Of a stretch of DNA of 43,487 nt, positions 22,304 to 33,532 are shown piece by piece; positions within the stretch are counted from its first letter, which is position 1, and every line of letters begins with the position of its first letter. Source of the stretch: Flavobacteriales bacterium (GTDB taxonomy: Bacteria > Bacteroidota > Bacteroidia > Flavobacteriales > Schleiferiaceae); NCBI GenBank assembly GCA_002737315.1, contig NSIH01000010.1:1-43487 (forward strand), read 5' to 3'. The notes beneath the pieces are model-generated. The model was not told the DNA's origin. It searched no databases and saw nothing but the letters and a program-made list of their open reading frames with translations. The translations under genes and the position numbers were made by a program.

Positions 22304-24109
22304 CTAGTGGGCGTGCTCTCCCTTTTTGATGGGCACATTCTGGGGAACAAAGTCCTCTTCGTAGCCAGGCTTGCTGTAGTCGTAGGGCCAGCGCTGAACC
22401 TCAGGAATGGCTCCCGGCCAGTTGCCGTGCATGTGTTCTACCGGCGCCGTCCACTCCAGCGTATTAGACCTCCAAGGATTTTGTGGAGCCTTAGGACCAC
22501 GCCACATGGAATAGAAGAAGTTAAAAATGAAAATAACCTGCGCTATTCCGCCTCCAATGGCGAAGAAGGTAATAATCACGTTAATGTCGTGCAGCTCGTC
22601 GAAGATGGGAAATTCCGCACTGCTGTAGTAGCGCCGTGGCAAACCAGCCAAGCCCGTGAAGTGCATTGGAAAGAATACCCCGTAGGCCGTCACAAAGGAA
22701 ATCCAAAAGTGAAGGTAGCCCATGGTCTTGTTCATCATGCGACCATACATCTTTGGGAACCAATGGTATACCCCAGCGAACATTCCGAAGATGGCCGACA
22801 ATCCCATCACAATATGGAAGTGTGCTACCACAAAGTAGGTGTCGTGCACGTTGATGTCTAGCGCCGAATCACCTAAGATGATGCCGGTCAAGCCGCCTGC
22901 TACGAAGGTGCTTACTAGTGCAATAGAAAAGAGCATGGCCGGAGTAAACTGAATGTTGCCCTTCCAAAGAGTGGTAATGTAGTTGAAGGCCTTGACCGCA
23001 GAGGGTATGGCAATCAACAGGGTAGTGAAGGTGAAGACGGAACCCAAAAATGGATTCATTCCCGTAATAAACATGTGGTGCCCCCATACTACGAATGACA
23101 AGAAGGCAATCGCCAGAATGGAACCAATCATCGCACGGTAGCCAAAAATGGGTTTGCGTGAGTTGGTAGCAATCACCTCTGACGTAATACCCAAGGCGGG
23201 CAGCAGGATGATGTACACTTCAGGGTGACCCAAGAACCAGAAAAGGTGTTCATAGAGAATAGGACTACCGCCTTGGTTGCTCAGAAGCTCTCCGGCGACC
23301 ATAATGTCGCTTAGGTAGAATGACGTTCCCATGGATCGGTCAAAAATCAGCAGAAGTGCCGCACTCAATAGAACTGGGAAAGAAAGGACACCCAAAATAG
23401 CCGTGACCAAGAAGGCCCAAATGGTCAATGGAAGGCGGGTCATGGTCATGCCCTTGGTCCGGAGGTTGATTACTGTAACAATATAGTTAAGTGATCCGAT
23501 CAATGATCCACCAACAAAAAGCGTCATGGACACAAGCCAGAGGGTCATGCCTGCGCCTGATCCGGGCATAGCCTGGGGAAGGGCGCTAAGGGGCGGGTAC
23601 ACGGTCCAACCGCCTGAGGCTGGTCCTGTCTCCACGAAGAGGGAAGTAAGCATTACCACCGAAGAGGCAGCAAAGAACCAGTATGAGATCATGTTCAGAA
23701 AACCGGAGGCCATGTCGCGCGCACCAATTTGCAATGGAATAAGTAGGTTCGAGAAGGTTCCGCTCAGGCCTGCAGTCAGTACAAAGAAGACCATGATGGT
23801 TCCGTGTATGGTTACCAGAGCCAGGTACATGTTGGGGTCCAAAACACCGTCTGGTGCCCATTTACCCAAGAAGGTTTCAAGAATTGGGAAGCTCTCGCCC
23901 GGCCAAGCCAGCTGGAGCCTGAATAGCATCGACATGAATACTCCTACGAGGCCCATAAACATTCCCGTAATTAGGAACTGCTTAGCGATCATTTTGTGAT
24001 CGGTCGAGAAAATATACTTCGTCCAGAAGTTATCGACTGGATGCTCGTCGTGATCATGGCCCTCTGCGTGAGCCGTATCGTGTGCGTGTTCCTGTGCGTG
24101 GTCTGCCAT
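22304..24109 (-). CDS. Cytochrome c oxidase subunit I (aa3 type)
   Basis: CoxA, 601 residues with about twelve helices, holds heme a and the heme a3-CuB site that reduces oxygen to water and pumps protons. Visible signatures include STDHKMIAKQF, the CuB/Tyr motif FWFLGHPEVYIILLP, VVWGHHMFITG and HDTYFVVAHFHIVMG with the heme ligands. The N-terminus carries seven histidines within residues 4-23 before the first helix, and the C-terminus ends in KKGEHAH. It follows coxB by 21 bp and is the last gene of the ACIII-oxidase operon; CoxIII and CoxIV come from the separate locus at 1454-3283. Confidence 0.97.
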   Translation of the reverse strand: MADHAQEHAHDTAHAEGHDHDEHPVDNFWTKYIFSTDHKMIAKQFLITGMFMGLVGVFMSMLFRLQLAWPGESFPILETFLGKWAPDGVLDPNMYLALVTIHGTIMVFFVLTAGLSGTFSNLLIPLQIGARDMASGFLNMISYWFFAASSVVMLTSLFVETGPASGGWTVYPPLSALPQAMPGSGAGMTLWLVSMTLFVGGSLIGSLNYIVTVINLRTKGMTMTRLPLTIWAFLVTAILGVLSFPVLLSAALLLIFDRSMGTSFYLSDIMVAGELLSNQGGSPILYEHLFWFLGHPEVYIILLPALGITSEVIATNSRKPIFGYRAMIGSILAIAFLSFVVWGHHMFITGMNPFLGSVFTFTTLLIAIPSAVKAFNYITTLWKGNIQFTPAMLFSIALVSTFVAGGLTGIILGDSALDINVHDTYFVVAHFHIVMGLSAIFGMFAGVYHWFPKMYGRMMNKTMGYLHFWISFVTAYGVFFPMHFTGLAGLPRRYYSSAEFPIFDELHDINVIITFFAIGGGIAQVIFIFNFFYSMWRGPKAPQNPWRSNTLEWTAPVEHMHGNWPGAIPEVQRWPYDYSKPGYEEDFVPQNVPIKKGEHAH

Positions 24110-24130: not shown

Positions 24131-25156
24131 CTACAACGTTTCAGCTATGGTCTTTTGTTCCGCAAGCCACTTAGCATACTCTTCTTCGGACTCTACCACA
24201 ATATTCATTTGCATGTTGAAGTGACCCGATCCACATACCTTATTGCATAGCAAGAGGTAGTCGTAGGCGTAGGATTCAAGACCCTTCTCGGTGCGCAAGG
24301 CATTGATGCGTGCGACTTTAGCCTGTACATTGGCATCCTGGCGGATGTCGGCTGTGGTAACCGACGGCGTAAATTGGAACTGGGTAGTCATTCCAGGAAC
24401 GCAGTTCATCTGAGCCCTAAAGTGAGGCATATAGGCCGAGTGAATCACGTCCTGCGAGCGAAAGCGAAAGAGTACGGGACGACCCACCGGCAAGTGAATC
24501 TCCGAGGCAACTTTGTCGTCGGCAGAAAGAAGGTCGAGGGTATCGACACCCACTACATTAGCATCCTTGATGAGGCGCACGTTCGCATAGCCTAATTTAT
24601 TGTCTTCACCGGCATAGCGGATTATCCACTTAAACTGCTGAGCGTAAACCTCTACAACAATGGGCTCCTTCTCGTTCTTTGGGCTCATCACGTTAGACCA
24701 AGTAGTCATGCCATAAATGATGAGAACCGCTAGTATAATCGCCGGAACAATGGTCCAGATGAACTCTAAGCGATTGTTGTGCTCGTAGTAGGCCGCCTTG
24801 CGATCTTTTGCACCACGGTACCTCCAAGCCAAATAGAATAGAATAGGCTGGACTAGCAAAAACATTGCAATAATCACCCACATAGAAATTTTGAACAAGC
24901 TGTCAATTTCTACCCCGTGCTCCGAAGCGGGCTTGGGAAGAGTGAGCGGGAGCCAGGCATAGAGCATCCAGAATAAGGACACGATCATAGCGATTCCAAA
25001 AAGCAGCATAAGCCAACCCTGGTAGTTGTTGTCGCGGTCGGTTACTTCGTATTCAACTTGCTTACGGGCCTTTGAAGACAGCTCAAAGACACGCATAAGC
25101 TGCAGGGCCGTTATCACGGCTAGCACTAGGACGACAATGGTAATAATTCCAGTCAT
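24131..25156 (-). CDS. Cytochrome c oxidase subunit II (CuA subunit)
   Basis: CoxB has 341 residues: three N-terminal hydrophobic segments (about 2-20, 46-70, 88-108 and possibly one near 135-157) and a periplasmic cupredoxin domain. The CuA ligands are C304, C308, H312 and M315 in CNKVCGSGHFNM, with the earlier His in VIHSAYMPHF. It ends 26 residues after that motif with no fused cytochrome c domain, so the enzyme is aa3 rather than caa3, and electrons must arrive from the act cytochromes. Its CuA site is the expected client of the SCO protein at 764-1450. Confidence 0.96.
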   Translation of the reverse strand: MTGIITIVVLVLAVITALQLMRVFELSSKARKQVEYEVTDRDNNYQGWLMLLFGIAMIVSLFWMLYAWLPLTLPKPASEHGVEIDSLFKISMWVIIAMFLLVQPILFYLAWRYRGAKDRKAAYYEHNNRLEFIWTIVPAIILAVLIIYGMTTWSNVMSPKNEKEPIVVEVYAQQFKWIIRYAGEDNKLGYANVRLIKDANVVGVDTLDLLSADDKVASEIHLPVGRPVLFRFRSQDVIHSAYMPHFRAQMNCVPGMTTQFQFTPSVTTADIRQDANVQAKVARINALRTEKGLESYAYDYLLLCNKVCGSGHFNMQMNIVVESEEEYAKWLAEQKTIAETL

Positions 25157-25182: not shown

Positions 25183-26640
25183 TTATTGTTGGAAGCGTTC
25201 GCTCTCGGTGAGCATAGGGTGGTTCTTAAGCCTTAAGGGCACCTTGGCGAGCTGGCTGAGGGTAACCCACAAAAACAAACCCGAATAAAACAAGATTCCG
25301 CCTAGTTCTGCGAAGCCAAAGCCGAAGCTGTAGCCCACTGCACCCGGCATAATCATGATGTAGTGATCGATCCAGTGACCCGCCAGCACAAAGACGGAGG
25401 CAAGCCCGATAAAGCCAAAAATTCGTTTTGCATCTCGAGACATTAGAACTAAAATGGGCAGCAAAAAGTTCATTGCGACCATAGCTACAAAGAGAGGCTT
25501 GTATTCTCCCTTAAACCTTGGCAGGTAGTAGGTGACTTCTTCAGGAATGTTAGAGTACCAAATGAGCATGTACTGACTGAACCATAGGTAGGTCCAAAAC
25601 ACACTGAAGGCAAACATAAACTTACTCAAGTCGTGCTGGTGGTTCTCGTTGATCCAAGGCAAGTGGTTGTTGAGACGCAGGTACATAACCAAAAGGTTGA
25701 GCACCGTCATGGCCGTAACAAACATTCCTGCGAAGGTGTACCATCCAAACAAAGTTGAGAACCAGTGGGGGTCTACCGACATAACCCAGTCCCATGCGCT
25801 GGTAGAAGACGTTACCGCGTAGAGCACGATAAAGGTTGCCGCCAGCTTGCGCTGGGTAAAGAACATATTTTGCCCTTGGGGAAGAGCGTCTTCGCGCAAG
25901 CTATTGCGGCGAAGTAAATAGGCTGCGCCCGCCCAAATAACTAAATAGGCCAGGGTACGCAGGGCAAAGAAGGGCACATTGAGGTAGGCTTCCTTGCCCG
26001 CAATGAGTGAATCATAGTTCGGACTCGCCGGGTCCATGATTCCTTCGGCCATCCAATGCCAGAGGTGGTGCATGTGCATTCCGCCGGTTGCAATTAAGAA
26101 CAGGATTCCGAGAATGGGAATTCCAACAAACATGCTCACCGCCTCAAAAACGCGAAGTAGCCCCACGGACCAGCCCACTTGGGCCGCGTACTGAATGGCC
26201 AAAAAGAAGAGTGTTCCGATGCCAATTCCCAAGAAGAATATGCTATTGACTAGGAATGCCGCCCAAGGACGGTTTGCGCTCAAGTCGTGACCATGATCTG
26301 AAGCATGTGCCTCGGCCGCATGTACTTCCGTGGCATGAGCCTCGTCAGCATGTGCTTCCGCAGCATGAGCTTCCGCAGCATGAGCTTCCGTGGCGTGAGC
26401 TTCTGCAGCATGAGTTTCCGTGGCATGAGCCTCTGCAGCATGAGCTTCCACAGCATGCGCCTCGTCAGCATGAGCTTCCACAGCATGCGCCTCTTCAGCA
26501 TGTCCTTGAGCGACGGCTCCATGATCCCCTGAGTCCGCATGAGAAGAGTAGTCCGTGTTAAAGCCAATGAGCAAGAACACCAAACCCACCAGCGTCAAAG
26601 ACCCGGCGAGCAGTTTCATTTTTGATGTGAATACAAACAT
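25183..26640 (-). CDS. actF: Alternative complex III subunit ActF with histidine-rich repeat
   Basis: ActF is an NrfD-like quinone-site membrane subunit of alternative complex III. I start it at 26640 (MFVFTSKMKLLAGS), 485 residues; a longer reading from 26736 would add a Cys-rich stretch lying inside actE. Helix 1 (about 8-26) is followed by thirteen EAHA-type pentapeptides (48-112), then about nine further helices. The segment HHLWHWMAEGIMDP and VMSVDPHWFSTLFGWYTFAG resemble family members. The His repeat is not a usual part of the family as I know it. It precedes coxB by 26 bp. Confidence 0.92.
   Translation of the reverse strand: MFVFTSKMKLLAGSLTLVGLVFLLIGFNTDYSSHADSGDHGAVAQGHAEEAHAVEAHADEAHAVEAHAAEAHATETHAAEAHATEAHAAEAHAAEAHADEAHATEVHAAEAHASDHGHDLSANRPWAAFLVNSIFFLGIGIGTLFFLAIQYAAQVGWSVGLLRVFEAVSMFVGIPILGILFLIATGGMHMHHLWHWMAEGIMDPASPNYDSLIAGKEAYLNVPFFALRTLAYLVIWAGAAYLLRRNSLREDALPQGQNMFFTQRKLAATFIVLYAVTSSTSAWDWVMSVDPHWFSTLFGWYTFAGMFVTAMTVLNLLVMYLRLNNHLPWINENHQHDLSKFMFAFSVFWTYLWFSQYMLIWYSNIPEEVTYYLPRFKGEYKPLFVAMVAMNFLLPILVLMSRDAKRIFGFIGLASVFVLAGHWIDHYIMIMPGAVGYSFGFGFAELGGILFYSGLFLWVTLSQLAKVPLRLKNHPMLTESERFQQ
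26305..26499 (-). repeat. Thirteen-unit 15-bp tandem repeat in actF
   Basis: Thirteen in-frame 15-bp units encode pentapeptides of the form A-x-E-A-H (units AEEAH, AVEAH, ADEAH, AAEAH, ATETH and so on). The units differ mainly at codon position three and at the second residue, and a 30-bp pair recurs twice near the upstream end, showing past duplication. All unit changes keep the frame. Confidence 0.97.
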
Positions 26641-26657: not shown

Positions 26658-27245
26658 TTAGGCAGCAGGTTGAGCAGCAGTAGTATCGGCAGCAGCGGGA
26701 GCAGCGCCAGGAGTTTGATCGGTACGAAGCTTCCAAACGTACTTAATGATCTTCCAACGCTCCTCGTAGTTGAGCTGGGCGGCATGCGAACCCATGTTGT
26801 TCTTGCCGTACATGATTACGTGGTAGATGCTTCCGGGGGAAATGTCTGGGAGCTTATCTGCACCGTAGCCGGGAATTCCCAAAATTTTCTCGCGCTGCAT
26901 CAAGATTCCGTTGCCGTCGCCTTTTTCGCCATGGCAATGCGAGCAAAATTGGCCGTAGAGCTCCTTGCCGGCCTCGGCATCGAGGGTGGCGTAGTATGAG
27001 GGGACCGCTGAATTCGCGCGCGACTCAATATAGCCTTCGTTGGTATTGGCAATCATGTAGGGAACGTATCCGCGCGGAACCGTACCGTCCACGGGGAGCT
27101 TAGTGGTACCCGGTTCGTAGGTCTGGTGGGCCGGAGAACGATACATGTCGTCCATATAGGTATAACCCGGTGTGGTCTTATCGCTATTGCAGGAGCTGAG
27201 CAGCAAGGCGCTGCCGGCAATCCAAAGAGTAGTCTTAATTCGCAT
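26658..27245 (-). CDS. actE: Alternative complex III subunit ActE, monoheme cytochrome c lipoprotein
   Basis: This 195-residue lipoprotein (lipobox LLLSSC, C19) carries one c-type heme site, C101-S-H-C104-H105, in a class I cytochrome domain (about 88-170). The C-terminus is an Ala/Pro/Thr low-complexity tail. ActE is the likely exit heme of alternative complex III, passing electrons to CoxB. The early part (MYRSPAHQTYEP, PVDGTVPRGYVPY) is typical of Bacteroidota ActE. It sits 5 bp after actD and 17 bp before actF. Confidence 0.93.
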   Translation of the reverse strand: MRIKTTLWIAGSALLLSSCNSDKTTPGYTYMDDMYRSPAHQTYEPGTTKLPVDGTVPRGYVPYMIANTNEGYIESRANSAVPSYYATLDAEAGKELYGQFCSHCHGEKGDGNGILMQREKILGIPGYGADKLPDISPGSIYHVIMYGKNNMGSHAAQLNYEERWKIIKYVWKLRTDQTPGAAPAAADTTAAQPAA

Positions 27246-27250
27246 GGGGA

Positions 27251-27772
27251 TTAGGCTTCAGCAATTTCAACAGCACCCGACTTTTGAAGCGTCTCGATTA
27301 GGCCCTTAGCCGCGGGTAGCTCGACCATAAAGTAATCGTCGGTGGTGCGGGGGTCCGGATTCTTAGCGTCTGCTCCGGGGTATAGGCCATTAATGACTAA
27401 GTAGGTCCAGACCATTAGGTGCGCGGCAAAAAATACCGTCATCTCAAATAGGATTGGTACGAATGCCGGCATATTCATGGCCCAATTAATGTTGGGTTTT
27501 CCGCCAATATTCTGCGGCCAGTCGCTGACCATCATGTACCAGGTTAGGGTCACGGCAACAGTGAGCCCAATGACTCCGTACATGAATGCCGCCAAGGCAA
27601 TGCGAGACTCCTTAAGGCCCATGGCCTTATCGAGCCCGTGAACCGGGAACGGGGTGTATACTTCTGAAATTTTAAAGCCGGCCGCACGAATTTGCTTCAC
27701 AGCCGAAATCAGCACGTCGTCGTCGTGATACATCGCTCGTACTAACGGAACAGACTCAGTGCTGTGCGCCAT
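27251..27772 (-). CDS. actD: Alternative complex III subunit ActD (DUF3341)
   Basis: A 173-residue protein with an N-terminal cytoplasmic domain (AVKQIRAAGFKISEVYTPFPVHGLDKAMGL, about 24-53) and two membrane helices (about 59-83 and 106-130), the usual plan of the DUF3341 family. ActD is a structural subunit placed against ActC and ActF. Its start overlaps the end of actC by 17 bp. Confidence 0.92.
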   Translation of the reverse strand: MAHSTESVPLVRAMYHDDDVLISAVKQIRAAGFKISEVYTPFPVHGLDKAMGLKESRIALAAFMYGVIGLTVAVTLTWYMMVSDWPQNIGGKPNINWAMNMPAFVPILFEMTVFFAAHLMVWTYLVINGLYPGADAKNPDPRTTDDYFMVELPAAKGLIETLQKSGAVEIAEA

Positions 27773-29147
27773 GATCGTTATGGAGTTTTTTCTGGGCTTC
27801 GCCAGACGTTTTTAGAATAGTCTTGAGTTCCGCTTGAGCAATGACCGGGAAGGTGCGGGCATAAAGCAAAAAGAGAGCAAAGAAGAATCCGATGGTACCG
27901 ATAAAGATGCCCACCTCAACAAAAGAGGGAGAGAACATCGACCAACTCGAGGGAAGGTAGTCGCGGTGCAGCGAGGTCACGATGATTACAAAGCGCTCAA
28001 ACCACATGCCGATGTTCACCACAATCGAGATCATAAAGGTGAATACCAGATTGGTCCTCAGCTTTTTGGACCACATTAACTGAGGACTAAAGACATTGCA
28101 GGTCATCATGGACCAATAGGCCCACCAATAGGGACCCGTAGCACGGTTTAGGAATGCATACTGCTCGTACTCTACCCCACTGTACCACGCGATAAAGAGT
28201 TCGGTAATGTAGGCTACTCCAACAATAGAACCGGTAACCATGATTACGATGTTCATCATCTCAATGTGCTGAATAGTGATGTAGTCGTCCATCTTAAAGA
28301 CCTTGCGCACAATGAGCAAGAGGGTCTGAACCATGGCAAATCCTGAGAAAATTGCGCCGGCAACGAAGTAGGGAGGGAAGATGGTCGTATGCCAGCCAGG
28401 AATCACAGAAGTCGCAAAGTCCATTGATACGATGGTGTGAACCGAGAGCACCAAGGGCGTAGCTAAGCCGGCCAAAACCAATGAAACCTCTTCAAAACGT
28501 TGCCATGCCTTGGCTTTTCCGCCCCATCCAAAAGATAAAATCTTGTAAATGTGCTTTTGCACCGGGTTGATAGCGCGATCTCGGACCATTGCGAAGTCCG
28601 GAATGAGTCCGACATACCAAAAAACGACCGAAACGGTAAGGTAGGTTGAGATGGCAAAAACGTCCCAAAGGAGGGGCGAATTAAAGTTCACCCAAAGGGA
28701 GCCGTACTGGTTTGGGATGGGGAACACCCAGTAGGCCAACCATACGCGACCCATGTGAAAGAGCGGAAACAAGCCAGCCTGAATTACCGAAAAAATGGTC
28801 ATGGCCTCCGCGGAGCGGTTAATGGCCATGCGCCAACGCTGGCGGAACAGCAATAGAACGGCAGAAATAAGGGTACCGGCGTGGCCGATGCCTACCCACC
28901 ATACGAAGTTGGTGATGTCCCAGGCCCAGCCTACGGTCTTATTAAGGCCCCATACCCCAATGCCCGTAGCCACGGTATAGGCTATTGATCCCGCGCCCCA
29001 AAGAAACATGACTAGAGCAATAGAAAATGCCACCCACCAGGCACGCGGCGCAGCGGTCTCTATCGGACGTACTACGTCTTCAGTAATCTGATGGTAGCTC
29101 TTATCGCCTAAGATAAGCGGCTTGCGTTCGGTTGATTCGTAGTGCAT
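27756..29147 (-). CDS. actC: Alternative complex III subunit ActC (NrfD/PsrC-like)
   Basis: ActC, 463 residues with about ten helices, is the main quinol-binding membrane subunit, in contact with ActB. The family segments WWVGIGHAGTLISAVLLLFRQRWRMAINRSAEAMT (about 84-118) and FPLFHMGRVWLAYWVFPIPNQYG are clear, with the conserved His and Arg of the quinol site. It ends in a short His-rich tail (HNDHGAQH). It starts 6 bp after actB. Confidence 0.95.
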   Translation of the reverse strand: MHYESTERKPLILGDKSYHQITEDVVRPIETAAPRAWWVAFSIALVMFLWGAGSIAYTVATGIGVWGLNKTVGWAWDITNFVWWVGIGHAGTLISAVLLLFRQRWRMAINRSAEAMTIFSVIQAGLFPLFHMGRVWLAYWVFPIPNQYGSLWVNFNSPLLWDVFAISTYLTVSVVFWYVGLIPDFAMVRDRAINPVQKHIYKILSFGWGGKAKAWQRFEEVSLVLAGLATPLVLSVHTIVSMDFATSVIPGWHTTIFPPYFVAGAIFSGFAMVQTLLLIVRKVFKMDDYITIQHIEMMNIVIMVTGSIVGVAYITELFIAWYSGVEYEQYAFLNRATGPYWWAYWSMMTCNVFSPQLMWSKKLRTNLVFTFMISIVVNIGMWFERFVIIVTSLHRDYLPSSWSMFSPSFVEVGIFIGTIGFFFALFLLYARTFPVIAQAELKTILKTSGEAQKKLHNDHGAQH

Positions 29148-29153
29148 AACTGG

Positions 29154-32100
29154 TTAAGCGTTGCGAACTTTAGTCAGGTAAAACACGGAAGGCTGCGTGC
29201 CAACTTCCTCAAGTAGGTGGTAGGCACGAGCGTCAGACTTGGCGGAACGAACGGCACTTTTGGCGTTGTTAACGTCTCCGAAGGTGATTGCCCCAGTGGA
29301 ACAGGCCTCCGCGCAGGCTACCGTAAATGCACCGTCAGGAATGGGTTGACCAACCTTTTTGGCTTCCAGCTTGGCGTACTGCACGCGCTGTATGCACATG
29401 GAGCACTTCTCCATAACGCCTCGCGAGCGCACCGTTACGTCGGGGTTGAGAACCATGCGGCCAAAATCGTCTTGCGACGGATTCACGTCGGCAAACTGCT
29501 CGTTGGTGATGTAGTTGAACCAGTTGAATCGACGCACCTTGTAGGGGCAGTTGTTGGCGCAGTAGCGGGTTCCGATGCAGCGGTTGTAGGCCATGTGGTT
29601 GAGGCCTTCGCGCGAGTGCACGGTGGCTCCTACCGGGCAAACGGTTTCGCAGGGCGCATGGTTGCAGTGCTGGCACATCACTGGCTGAAACACGACCATT
29701 GGAGATTCCGAAGGCTCCTCCATTTGGGCGTACATCTCGATGCCACCGATATTCTCTTCAGCGGCACGATCCTTACTCATGTCGCTGCTGTAGTAGCGGT
29801 CAATTCGAAGCCAGTGCATGTCTCTCAGGTTGCGGATCTCCTCTTTGCCGACTACCGGTACGTTGTTCTCGGCATTGCAGGCAACGACGCAGGCGGCACA
29901 ACCCGTGCAGCTCGTTAGGTCAATGCTCATGTTCCACATGTGCATCGTCTCGTGGTCGTGGTTGGCCCAAAGATTAGCCTCCTCGGCTGACTTCAAGCCG
30001 TCAATAGTGTGGAAGGTTGGCTTCTCGTTCCAGCTGGCGCCCGAGGGGTCGGATACGAAATCGTTCAGATTCACTTCATTAACGATGCGTCGGCCCATCA
30101 TGGTGTGCCCGAGCTGCACGGTTGCAAACTCGTGCATGCCTTCTGCCTTGCTGATTTCGACCTTGGCCGAGCCAGTCAAAATTCCAAGAGCATAGGCACT
30201 AACGCCCCCGCCGTCGGCAACCTTACCGGCTGCACTGCGGCCGTATCCGTAGGCCAATCCAACCGTACCCGCCGTTTGGCCGGGTTGAATAAATACCGGA
30301 ACATTCTCGAGAAGGCGCTTGCCGACCTTGATGTTGGCATAGCTTCCGTCCAGTGACCCGTCGCTGTTGGTCTCGTTCTCAAAACCCATGGCAAGCGCAT
30401 CGGATGCGGCCATGGTCAGGTAGTTGTCCCAAGTCAATCGGGTAATAGGGTCGGGGAGCTCCTGAAGCCAGGGGTTGTTGGCCTGAAATCCTGCGCCGAG
30501 AGCGTTCTCGTACAATGCGATTTCCAGGCCCTCCGAAGGCTTTGCCAATTTGATTGAAGCGGCCATGGCCATAGCGGCGGCGGCTGGTGCGCCCGAAATG
30601 GCGCCTGAGGAAACCGTCGATCCTCCGTCGTGCAGGGTCTTGATCCAGTCAAGACCGAGGGAAGCAGCAGAAGCAGCAACCTGATCTTTGGCGCTTCGAA
30701 GGTCTCCTGAAAGAGAACCGAGAACCTCCAGCAAGGGCATGCTGTTGAATAAATTTTTGATTGTAGGCTGAGCGATACTGTACTCCCCTGCGGCCGGCCG
30801 GTAGTCTGCCCATGCCTCCAAAAAGTGTGGAATCGGCGCAGCGGCAGTACAAAGCATCGCAGTCTCGTCCAAACGATCCGTCAGGGCCATGCTGAACTTG
30901 GCTCCGGCGATAGCCTTCGAAAAGTCCGCCCTGAAATAGACCGGATTGGTTCCGGCGACCAAAAGAGTGCCCACGCGCTTGGCGCTCAGGTCCGCCATTA
31001 AATTTGCAAGGCGCGACTCATTACCGCGTCGAATGTAGACGGGTTTGTCGCTGCGAAGGGTTGTTCCAAACGAACCGAGGAGGCCGTTTAGGGCTGCCGC
31101 AAGCCTTGCCTGGTTTGCATCATCACCTCCGACCAGTACCAGGGTCTTGCCCTTTGCGGACTTCATCTCACCCGCAAGCGACTGCAAGGCCTTGCTCAAA
31201 TCGCCGCGCAGGCCAACCGACGGAGCGCTGCCGCCAAGCTGGTTGATGAGGTAGGCCAAGGATGCCGAAACCTCAGAGGGCTTAATCTTAATGCGCTTGT
31301 CAGCATTGCTGCCGGTAAGCGATAAATTGCTCTCCAGCTCTACGTGGCGAAGCATGCCGCTGCCTGGCTTTCGGCGTGCAGCGTAGTCACTGCTAACCTG
31401 CTGTGCCATGCTCGATGCCAAGAAGTCACTTCCAAAAGACAGAACCAAACTAGTGGCAGTTAGGTCTATCGAGGGAAGAGCACGAACGCCGGTAAGGGAT
31501 TCCCAAACGTCAAGGGTATTGGACTGCGACACCGCATCAAATTCCACGTGCTGAAAGTTTGCGTAGCCCTGGCGAATACGCTCAATAGCGGCTTGAAGCG
31601 AGGGACTGAAGACGCTCGAGGTCAATAAAACGAATTGCGTTCCCTCGGCACGAGACTGGTCGGCAGACTTCTTGAGGGCAATAAGCATTGACGGCCAATC
31701 GCTATTTTTTTTGCCGAGGCTAGGCTCGCGCAGACGGGCCGAATCATACAGAGAAAGCACACTGGCTTGGGCTCGGGCGTTGGTCCCGCGGTTGAATCGG
31801 GCAGAATCACCAGGCTCTAGCTTAATCGGGCGGCCTTCGCGCGTCTTTACTAAAACCGAAGCATAATCCTGGCCGTCGGTGTAAACCGTGGAATAAAAAG
31901 ACGGAACCCCTGGAGTCAGCGTATCAGGCTGCACTACGTAGGGTACGCTCTCGATAATAGGCTGCTCACAAGCGGCCAAGGTTGCGGCTGCGGTACTGAA
32001 GCCCAAAAACTTCAAGAAATCGCGACGGCTTGTGGCGGAGTCGCTGCTGCTTGCCTCCGATAAGAATACATCAACAGGAATGTCTTGAGCGAACTCATTC

Positions 32101-32174
32101 TCGGCCAAACGCTGCGAAACCTCAGTATTCGCAAGTTGGTCGAAACTCTTCCAGTACACTTTATTACTTGCCAT
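29154..32174 (-). CDS. actB: Alternative complex III subunit ActB (molybdopterin-like plus iron-sulfur domains)
   Basis: ActB is a 1006-residue periplasmic protein that fuses a molybdopterin-oxidoreductase-like domain (about 70-720; in this family it binds no molybdenum cofactor) with a four-cluster ferredoxin domain. Clusters: CTGCAACVVACNAEN, CQHCNHAPCETVCP, CIGTRYCANNCP and CSMCIQRVQ with CAEACSTG. A twin-arginine motif SRRDFLKFLGFS (R50-R51) with C69 nearby suggests Tat export and possible lipidation. The clusters take part in electron transfer within the complex. It starts 12 bp after actA. Confidence 0.96.
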   Translation of the reverse strand: MASNKVYWKSFDQLANTEVSQRLAENEFAQDIPVDVFLSEASSSDSATSRRDFLKFLGFSTAAATLAACEQPIIESVPYVVQPDTLTPGVPSFYSTVYTDGQDYASVLVKTREGRPIKLEPGDSARFNRGTNARAQASVLSLYDSARLREPSLGKKNSDWPSMLIALKKSADQSRAEGTQFVLLTSSVFSPSLQAAIERIRQGYANFQHVEFDAVSQSNTLDVWESLTGVRALPSIDLTATSLVLSFGSDFLASSMAQQVSSDYAARRKPGSGMLRHVELESNLSLTGSNADKRIKIKPSEVSASLAYLINQLGGSAPSVGLRGDLSKALQSLAGEMKSAKGKTLVLVGGDDANQARLAAALNGLLGSFGTTLRSDKPVYIRRGNESRLANLMADLSAKRVGTLLVAGTNPVYFRADFSKAIAGAKFSMALTDRLDETAMLCTAAAPIPHFLEAWADYRPAAGEYSIAQPTIKNLFNSMPLLEVLGSLSGDLRSAKDQVAASAASLGLDWIKTLHDGGSTVSSGAISGAPAAAAMAMAASIKLAKPSEGLEIALYENALGAGFQANNPWLQELPDPITRLTWDNYLTMAASDALAMGFENETNSDGSLDGSYANIKVGKRLLENVPVFIQPGQTAGTVGLAYGYGRSAAGKVADGGGVSAYALGILTGSAKVEISKAEGMHEFATVQLGHTMMGRRIVNEVNLNDFVSDPSGASWNEKPTFHTIDGLKSAEEANLWANHDHETMHMWNMSIDLTSCTGCAACVVACNAENNVPVVGKEEIRNLRDMHWLRIDRYYSSDMSKDRAAEENIGGIEMYAQMEEPSESPMVVFQPVMCQHCNHAPCETVCPVGATVHSREGLNHMAYNRCIGTRYCANNCPYKVRRFNWFNYITNEQFADVNPSQDDFGRMVLNPDVTVRSRGVMEKCSMCIQRVQYAKLEAKKVGQPIPDGAFTVACAEACSTGAITFGDVNNAKSAVRSAKSDARAYHLLEEVGTQPSVFYLTKVRNA

Positions 32175-32186
32175 AGTCTTATTCGA

Positions 32187-33485
32187 TTAGTAGTGGCACT
32201 TGCCACATTCGAGACCGCCAATATTGGCAACCGTTATTTTCTCTTCGTGGAAGCGATCCACTAGGCGGTCGCTGATCGAGGCCGATCCGTCGATGGCCCC
32301 TGCATAGTAGCCGTTTTCGCCCTTGATTTCGGTTTCGCGGTGGCAGTTGATGCACCAACCCATAGTAAGCTCACTGTATTGATAAGCAACTTCCATTTCT
32401 TGAACCGGACCGTGGCAGGTTTGGCACTCCACTTTACCTGCATTGACGTGCTGAGCGTGGTTGAAGTAGGCCAAGTCAGGGAGGTTGTGAATCCGAATCC
32501 ACTGAATGGGCTTTTGCTCATAGCCCTCCATGTAGACGCGCTCCTCGGGGTCCCAGCCAATGGCTGCGTAGATTTTTTGAATCTCTGGGCTGCGCTCTCC
32601 GCCGTATTTCAGGTTGCCCGAAGCATCTACCACCTCAGAACCGTCGATGTACATGTGGCAGTTCATACAAACGTTTGCAGCAGGAATTCCGGAGTGCTTG
32701 CTGTGGCGAGCGCTGCTGTGGCAATAGTTGCAATCCACCCCGTTTTCTCCGGCGTGAATCTTATGACTAAAGGCGATAGGCTGAACCGGCTGGTAGTCCT
32801 TCTCAATGCCAATGCCCATTAAAAAAGAATAGATGGCGTAGAGGAACCCTAGGGCCAACACCACGGTGAGGAAGGTCATGAATCGCTTATTTGCAATTAA
32901 CACCCTTGTAATGAAGTCAACGTCCTCAAGCAGGTTGGTCGGATTCTCGCCATTAATCTGCTTCAAGGTGTTTCGCACCCTGAATAGCAAGACCAAGTTT
33001 ACCAGCAGAAAAGCACCTAAAATATAAATTAACCAAGGAGAGTTTCCACCCTCTGCAGGAGCTTGAGCAGCCGCGTCCGCACCGGGTGCGGGTGCTGCGG
33101 CAGGCGCAGCCTTCTTGTCGCCTTCTACGGTGTAGGCCAGAATGCTTTTAATGTCGTCGTCGGTAAGAGCAGGGAAAGCTTGCATGATGGACCCCTTATA
33201 CTCGGCGAACAATGCGTTGGCGTCTGCATCACCCGAGGCACGAAATTCCGCATTATTGCGAATCCACTTGAGCAGCCACTCCTCCGTACGGCGTTGAGTA
33301 ACGTCGCCCAAGGCGGGGCCGATTAGCTTTTTGTCGAGTTTGTGGCAGCTCGCGCAGTTGGCTTTGAACAACTTTTTGCCCGCATCGGCGCTAACCTCTG
33401 CGGCAGCGGTGATGCTTAAAATGCTGATAGCCAAGAGCATCAAAACAACTCTTCTAGTCAGCGAAGCATAATGGTTTAAAAGCAT
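32187..33485 (-). CDS. actA: Alternative complex III subunit ActA, multiheme cytochrome c with extra N-terminal heme domain
   Basis: With the start at 33485 (MLLNHYASLTRR) the protein has 432 residues. Six CxxCH sites are seen: C44 in a class I cytochrome c domain (about 32-122), and C252, C273, C354, C378 and C427 in the pentaheme part. An Ala/Pro linker (about 125-148) and two helices (about 151-170 and 200-222) separate the two parts. The pentaheme part is the typical ActA; the fused monoheme domain adds a further electron carrier. The alternative start at 33527 overlaps the TACTTTTG promoter box and is rejected. First gene of the act-cox operon. Confidence 0.93.
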   Translation of the reverse strand: MLLNHYASLTRRVVLMLLAISILSITAAAEVSADAGKKLFKANCASCHKLDKKLIGPALGDVTQRRTEEWLLKWIRNNAEFRASGDADANALFAEYKGSIMQAFPALTDDDIKSILAYTVEGDKKAAPAAAPAPGADAAAQAPAEGGNSPWLIYILGAFLLVNLVLLFRVRNTLKQINGENPTNLLEDVDFITRVLIANKRFMTFLTVVLALGFLYAIYSFLMGIGIEKDYQPVQPIAFSHKIHAGENGVDCNYCHSSARHSKHSGIPAANVCMNCHMYIDGSEVVDASGNLKYGGERSPEIQKIYAAIGWDPEERVYMEGYEQKPIQWIRIHNLPDLAYFNHAQHVNAGKVECQTCHGPVQEMEVAYQYSELTMGWCINCHRETEIKGENGYYAGAIDGSASISDRLVDRFHEEKITVANIGGLECGKCHY

Positions 33486-33524
33486 ACTTAATCTTAGTGG
33501 TAAACTGATCCTTTTTAGGCACTG

Positions 33525-33532
33525 CAAAAGTA
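33525..33532 (-). promoter_or_regulatory. Promoter box of the act-cox operon
   Basis: A perfect TACTTTTG lies about 40 nt before the actA ATG at 33485, giving a leader of roughly 30-35 nt, unlike the near-leaderless promoters elsewhere. No -33 TTG at the usual distance; a regulator could be needed. Confidence 0.5.

Follow-up and report, generated by a model that had tools for sequence, protein, structure and literature searches.

What does a tandem histidine repeat do on the surface of a respiratory membrane protein? The question is raised by the gene for subunit F (ActF) of alternative complex III (ACIII), a quinol:cytochrome c oxidoreductase, in a Flavobacteriales bacterium of the family Schleiferiaceae. 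We analyzed a 43,487-nucleotide stretch of its genome (contig NSIH01000010.1; this whole stretch is hereafter the window), for which a sequence-only reading had noted thirteen histidine-rich A-x-E-A-H pentapeptides inserted between the first two helices of ActF and had suggested that they could bind copper or zinc, buffer protons, or link partner complexes. How ACIII conserves energy is unsettled, and among its subunits ActF is the one whose role is least clear.

By homology and gene order, the array-bearing gene is part of an ACIII-cytochrome aa3 gene cluster. Its product matches the solved chains 6btm_F (phmmer E value, 3.6e-111) and 6f0k_F (2.7e-59) and shares a homologous membrane core with four solved ActF sequences; the Pfam and NCBIfam profiles assigned no family to ActF itself. 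The genes follow the order of an act cluster, ActA, ActB, ActC, ActD, ActE, ActF, CoxB, CoxA (Table 1), and CoxA is the sole haem-copper oxidase found in the organism's own genome, which is 84% complete. The sequence of ActC has no His-rich loop between its first helices. The extra N-terminal monohaem domain of ActA is also described for Flavobacterium johnsoniae in PMC8552683, which reports as well the deletion of an ACIII gene from that species.

Table 1. Features of the ACIII-cytochrome aa3 cluster and of the ActF loop, in window positions.
Feature	Positions	Strand	Remarks	Basis
actF, alternative complex III (quinol:cytochrome c oxidoreductase) subunit F	25183..26640	minus	485 aa, ATG at 26640	phmmer, gene order
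First transmembrane helix of ActF	26557..26625	minus	residues 6-28	AlphaFold, block pLDDT 95-98
His/Ala/Glu/Asp-rich periplasmic TM1-TM2 loop, predicted disordered	26287..26541	minus	residues 34-118	pLDDT, sequence
13 A-x-E-A-H pentapeptides, 15-bp units, in frame	26305..26499	minus	ActF residues 48-112	
Second transmembrane helix of ActF	26182..26283	minus	residues 120-153	AlphaFold
actA, multihaem cytochrome c with extra N-terminal monohaem domain	32187..33527	minus	start codon uncertain	Pfam Cytochrom_C 48-132 and Cytochrome_C7, QrcA-like
actB, molybdopterin-like and Fe-S subunit	29154..32174	minus		Fer4 domains, QrcB/QrcC matches, TIGR04519
actC, NrfD-like paralogue of ActF	27756..29147	minus		PF03916
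actD	27251..27772	minus		PF11821 (E 6.6e-58)
actE, monohaem cytochrome c, probable lipoprotein	26658..27245	minus		PF13442, sequence
coxB, cytochrome oxidase subunit II	24131..25156	minus		PF02790, PF00116
coxA, cytochrome oxidase subunit I	22304..24109	minus	residues 1-23 form a separate His-rich tail	PF00115 (E 4.2e-139)
CoxA N-terminal tail MADHAQEHAHDTAHAEGHDHDEH	24041-24109	minus	residues 1-23	

The thirteen units lie where they had been placed, correct to the base. A1, E3, and H5 are invariant in 13/13 units, A4 is replaced by T or V in two, and the window loop as a whole contains 18 His. The array scores between 153 (period 15) and 220 (period 30) in TRF, and a separate repeat search recovered 11 steps of 15 bp. 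The duplicated 30-bp pair that had been pointed out is borne out, units 1-2 and 3-4 being the best nonoverlapping pair (29/30 bases identical), and so is the largely silent character of the variation around a fixed A, E, A, and H: over all pairs of the 13 units, these codons gave a pS of 0.66 and a pN of 0.03 (pN/pS, 0.05) and the x codon was nearly free (pN/pS, 0.87), values that we take as a clear tendency rather than a test since unit pairs are not independent. The opposite case, in which the repeat is scattered as low complexity through unrelated proteins, was looked for in the organism's own genome (84% complete) and not found, a 73-residue repeat query matching only itself at E values up to 10. 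Genome-wide simple low complexity was rejected on this result together with the gene ranking given below. Queried against the PDB, the first 119 residues of ActF returned a single, unrelated match (E value, 0.88). A contaminating or chimeric origin was also rejected, as ordinary ActF sequence flanks the loop and the loop recurs across the genus.

PMC5928083 and PMC8076601 describe ActF as a ten-helix protein whose N and C termini both face the cytoplasm, so the TM1-TM2 loop is periplasmic; the former also proposes proton half-channels in ActF, which it describes as having neither a cofactor nor a quinone site. An AlphaFold model (47 sequences) has a confident membrane core (pTM, 0.81) with ten long helices, a count obtained by reading the helix list with 156-169 left out, and it places the insert between predicted helices 1 and 2. 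Residues 37-117 are modeled at pLDDT <50 as coil except for a short helix at 108-113, and the loop is probably floppy or disordered on the evidence of this model. The sequence-only reading had pictured a helix with alternating His and Glu around its surface, which does not agree with the mostly coil model or with the Gly/Asp/Ser units used by relatives, such as SHAGD, indicating that helicity is not conserved; a helical rod or zipper was rejected on these grounds.

The insert is not private to the window genome. ActF was present in 57/60 relatives searched, with no match in G040, G044, and G057, and we counted a TM1-TM2 loop as His-rich if it had at least 25 residues and at least 10% His. Readable ActFs had such a loop in 20/20 cases within the genus, 13/14 elsewhere in the family, and 9/19 elsewhere in the order, counts that leave out three genes cut at contig ends (G009, G015, and G028), the three genomes with no match, and G059, whose match, close to a contig end, does not start until core residue 15. 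The 10 other-family ActFs of the order that lack it include one with a tract in the next loop. The turn is just 6 to 8 residues long in G043, G046, G056, and G058, the loops of G042, G050, and G055 are long and poor in His, and G051 (L132), a strongly reduced and perhaps symbiotic genome of 0.34 Mb, keeps an ActF with a loop of 19 residues and 0 His. We also note that four loci from other families (L120, L135, L136, and L137) have a long TM1-TM2 insert with fewer His and a look-alike end before QRP, which is perhaps a small folded domain. A phylum-wide draw of 118 genomes contained 84 with ActF, from which 49 loci were read. Among the nearer loci, 9/9 (L273-L281) and 5/20 (L282-L301) had the His-rich loop, four of these genomes also figuring in the counts above; it was present in 0/20 distant Bacteroidota (L302-L321), where the turn is 3 to 10 residues with 0 or 1 His (one row reads 19 residues because it runs into the next helix). 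Given the short turns of the distant loci, the long loop looks derived. By record title, carriers among 80 named loci include Schleiferiaceae, Flavobacterium, Winogradskyella, Capnocytophaga, Hymenobacter, and Marinoscillum.

The loop itself can already be seen in a public sequence. PDB 6btm chain F, which we take to be the ActF of the F. johnsoniae ACIII structure, is the same subunit, aligns over residues 62-484 of the window ActF, and has a His-rich stretch in the same place; unlike that of the window, this stretch is irregular, without a pentapeptide array, and the chain is about 21 residues shorter to that point by its own numbering. The chains 6f0k_F, 6lod_F, and 8k9e_F share the membrane core, but their matches begin only at window ActF residues 119-123, after the loop. 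We found no description of the ActF His-rich loop in the literature searched, a scope outside which the 2018 F. johnsoniae structure paper falls.

Within the genus the loop changes quickly. Loops of 99, 93, and 59 residues occur in the window and in two genomes whose core DNA is 93 to 94% identical to it, and G007 (94% core DNA identity) has about 4 units versus 13 in the window, bearing out the suggestion that unit number changes without a frameshift, although the genomes compared are different species-level genomes and collapse in short-read assembly may shorten arrays. An in-frame unit number that differs between close relatives is the behavior of a slippage-prone coding repeat. In 13 further genomes of the genus, loop identity is 43 to 59% at a core identity of 77 to 92%, and across species His-rich loops range from 28 to 154 residues and differ in both sequence and repeat: SHAGD in L015, L019, and L020, HHEEGSHSEVT-like units in L018 and L021, DDHADAGH in L030, and HATEA twelve times in L092, whose ActF is 71% identical.

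The composition of the loop is retained through this turnover. After loops cut at contig ends, loops containing X, and matches starting after core residue 13 were dropped from the composition and spacing counts, 100 distinct complete loops with a length of 25 aa or more remained, and 96 of them contained at least 10% His. Pooled, the 100 loops are 18.5% Ala, 17.2% His, 12.7% Glu, 7.3% Asp, and 4.4% Lys plus Arg, with 1.7% Met and 2 Cys in all, and in the genus the median number of Lys plus Arg before the closing NRP is zero. The same chemistry is also found at a second place. In family f14 (2/2 genomes, G049 and G173; L126, L322, and L323), the TM1-TM2 turn is minimal, and it is the TM3-TM4 loop, likewise periplasmic, that carries a long His/acid tract with units resembling GEEAHGD; among 79 distinct ActFs with a readable TM3-TM4 loop, a set that does not include G173, only G049 is His-rich there. 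The recurrence of one chemistry at two sites on the periplasmic face speaks for function rather than chance tolerance, and its persistence through sequence replacement points to a physical property of the loop in bulk. That relatives rewrite the sequence and keep the chemistry suggests that the loop has a job, for example, in proton handling and less likely with metals.

We sampled 769,020 of the 1,363,918 bases (56%) of the organism's own genome, comprising the window and 40 stretches in which 626 genes were called by a simple coding score, and the highest His numbers per 50 residues belonged to ActF (11), AtpB (9), and CoxA (8, tied with one other gene); the stretch bearing AtpB had been chosen before the position of AtpB was known. 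Inspection by eye of the 14 top-ranked genes revealed no His-repeat tract outside these three. In G012 the same proteins are the top three of 301 genes (ActF, 11; CoxA, 9; AtpB, 9, with the AtpB maximum in a conserved domain and not in the variable tract), and in G024 they reach 12 (ActF), 9 (AtpB), and 7 (CoxA, tied with three others) among 315 genes, but the stretches of these two genomes were picked to include ActF and AtpB and so replicate only the ranking against other genes. ORFs around NqrB of the sodium pump have at most 4 His per 50 residues. A CoxA N terminus was obtained in 76/80 named loci and carries 4 to 12 His up to and including a DHK motif, which itself counts one. The CoxA tail presumably lies on the cytoplasmic side and the AtpB tract on the periplasmic side, as established topology would have it. 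In AtpB (ATP synthase subunit a; L159 1553-2716, contig C36 of this genome), a variable N-terminal tract with His precedes a conserved domain that also contains His; L168 is an extreme case. The sample also contains a 21-bp tandem array of about 9.5 copies (L152 15152-15351, contig C14; TRF score, 197, or 249 at period 84); no further array in the sample besides this and that of ActF exceeds a TRF score of 115.

We lean tentatively toward reading the ActF loop as a proton buffer or antenna on the P side of the subunit, one that evolves fast under selection for its composition, and of the functions first proposed for it, putative proton buffering is the better one. Under this proposal, the short TM1-TM2 turn of ActF would have been lengthened in Flavobacteriales, with shorter versions in some Cytophagales, into a brush on the P side, disordered, rich in His, and negative in charge, at the face of supposed proton release. 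Slippage of short repeat units, itself presumed, would keep altering the length and sequence of the loop, and selection would preserve its composition (about 18% His, 20% Asp plus Glu, and, in the organism's own genus, hardly any Lys or Arg). The loop's numerous separate imidazoles, which would titrate near neutral pH and are interspersed with carboxylates, could then catch protons leaving ACIII, keep them close to the membrane, and shield the ACIII-aa3 supercomplex from swings in pH. The titratable composition expected of an antenna is present in the ActF loops and their P-side placement follows the literature topology, in which the half-channels are a proposal; proton exit at this face, buffering, and a benefit to the cell we infer.

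A rival reading is metal binding. With a loose hold on Cu(II), Zn(II), or Ni(II), the periplasmic loop could buffer free metal beside cytochrome aa3 or feed its copper sites, and the 18 His of the window loop and the cytochrome aa3 encoded next door to actF are consistent with this. Cytochrome aa3 requires copper, and His-rich metal-binding proteins are defined by chelating HxH, HH, Cys, or Met motifs. In the 96 His-rich ActF loops we counted 46 HxH versus 209 expected from shuffles and 132 HH versus 211 expected, with i+5 spacing enriched (315 versus 199); 68 of the 96 loops have no HxH at all and 90 fall below expectation. The two deficits hold in three identity classes (genus, family, and farther relatives) and with Asp/Glu fixed, although the z-values of these tests are too large owing to repeats and relatedness. 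The tails of CoxA show the reverse (HxH, 169 observed versus 76 expected in 61 tails), and 16 AtpB tracts, few in number and picked for several His, had 3 HxH versus 6.7 expected with i+4 enriched. This avoidance disfavors selection for a tight metal clamp and weakens the copper or zinc idea, as do the scarcity of Cys and Met, the lack of any copper chaperone family among 18 window proteins scanned with Pfam, and the further tract on AtpB, which to our knowledge is not a copper or zinc enzyme. A probable zinc site has, however, been reported in a Pseudomonas AtpB (PMC12796488). Disordered or His-rich periplasmic metal binders do exist, and the ActF loop resembles SilE (disordered) and CopI (His-rich) in this respect; CopI is described as having both His- and Met-rich regions, whereas the ActF loops avoid HxH and hold little Met and almost no Cys. 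We regard a metal-buffering loop as less likely than proton buffering but as a serious contender.

It could also be that repeats simply accumulate in an insertion-tolerant surface turn, selection acting only on solubility and net negative charge and the histidines being incidental. The fast change in loop length between near relatives would follow from such permissive slippage, as would the 10/19 other-family ActFs that lack the loop, including G051 with its 0 His, and the strong L152 array elsewhere in the genome. Such filling accords poorly with the retention of at least 10% His in 96/100 loops despite turnover, with the pN/pS of 0.05 at the A, E, A, and H codons, with the like chemistry of the f14 TM3-TM4 loop, and with the confinement of His-repeat tracts, by eye among the top 14 of 626 genes, to ActF, AtpB, and CoxA, and we consider it slightly less likely than metal buffering, though likewise a serious contender. 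Very improbable is a docking arm, in which the loop would serve as a helix or tether joining ACIII to cytochrome aa3 or another partner: PMC8361435 lists an ACIII-aa3 supercomplex in F. johnsoniae (ACIII1IV1) but places the contact at oxidase subunit III, and the loop is predicted coil at pLDDT <50, varies from 28 to 154 residues, and uses helix-unfriendly units (SHAGD) in relatives.

The proton-buffering proposal is favored by the constraint on the array, the kept composition, the differing repeats of like chemistry, including those at a second place, the His ranking, the nonchelating spacing, and two precedents; location, predicted disorder, spread, turnover, amino acid constraint, His spacing, and genome ranking were all computed here. 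The first precedent is the loop of QcrB, proposed as a proton-collecting antenna in the mycobacterial III2IV2 supercomplex (PMC11189923): like the ActF loop, it belongs to a subunit of a complex III, bears protonatable groups, and has a proposed role in proton gathering, but it acts at the mouth of the N-side D channel and is part of an unrelated protein, and the passages on it mention no repeat array. The second is the His-rich ATP6 extension of the ice worm Mesenchytraeus solifugus, which reportedly raised ATP synthesis when moved to the Escherichia coli enzyme (as cited in PMC12796488). It too is a His-rich addition to a proton-translocating subunit; unlike the ActF loop, it is a C-terminal tail on ATP synthase, and the authors of PMC12796488 consider it possibly metal binding.

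Standing against a proton role are the other-family ActFs without a loop, the opposite spacing in CoxA, and the lack of significant His covariation with AtpB or CoxA. ActF and AtpB His numbers did not covary significantly across genomes (rho = 0.27, P = 0.14, n = 31), nor without the G002 row, where AtpB looks misread (rho = 0.34, P = 0.07, n = 30), nor with one genome per genus outside the organism's own genus (rho = 0.25, P = 0.38, n = 14), and the same was true of ActF and CoxA (rho = 0.48, P = 0.14, n = 11). These correlations ignore relatedness. In the set used, CoxA was not found in 7/18 genomes and AtpB was not found in 2/35; the G024 AtpB row includes the signal region, which leaves its His count unaffected, and the G012 CoxA tail has 9 His. 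A shared driver of His content in the three proteins was rejected on these nonsignificant rank correlations. With opposite spacing and an expected location on the other side of the membrane, the CoxA and ActF tracts need not share one role.

A wider version of the proton-buffering proposal, which we offer as speculative and on balance unlikely, is that the proton-translocating machines of Flavobacteriales are fitted with tunable, disordered His/acid brushes at their proton mouths, ActF and AtpB outside and CoxA inside, and that repeat slippage quickly sets the size of this capacitor, so that coupling would adapt to habitat pH with the enzyme core untouched. The length and the histidines of the loop offer a simple experimental handle on ActF. 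If proton buffering is indeed its role, the loop would show, in a naturally evolving case, how protons are handled locally between respiratory complexes, and would open this long-debated question to testing in a bacterium amenable to genetics.
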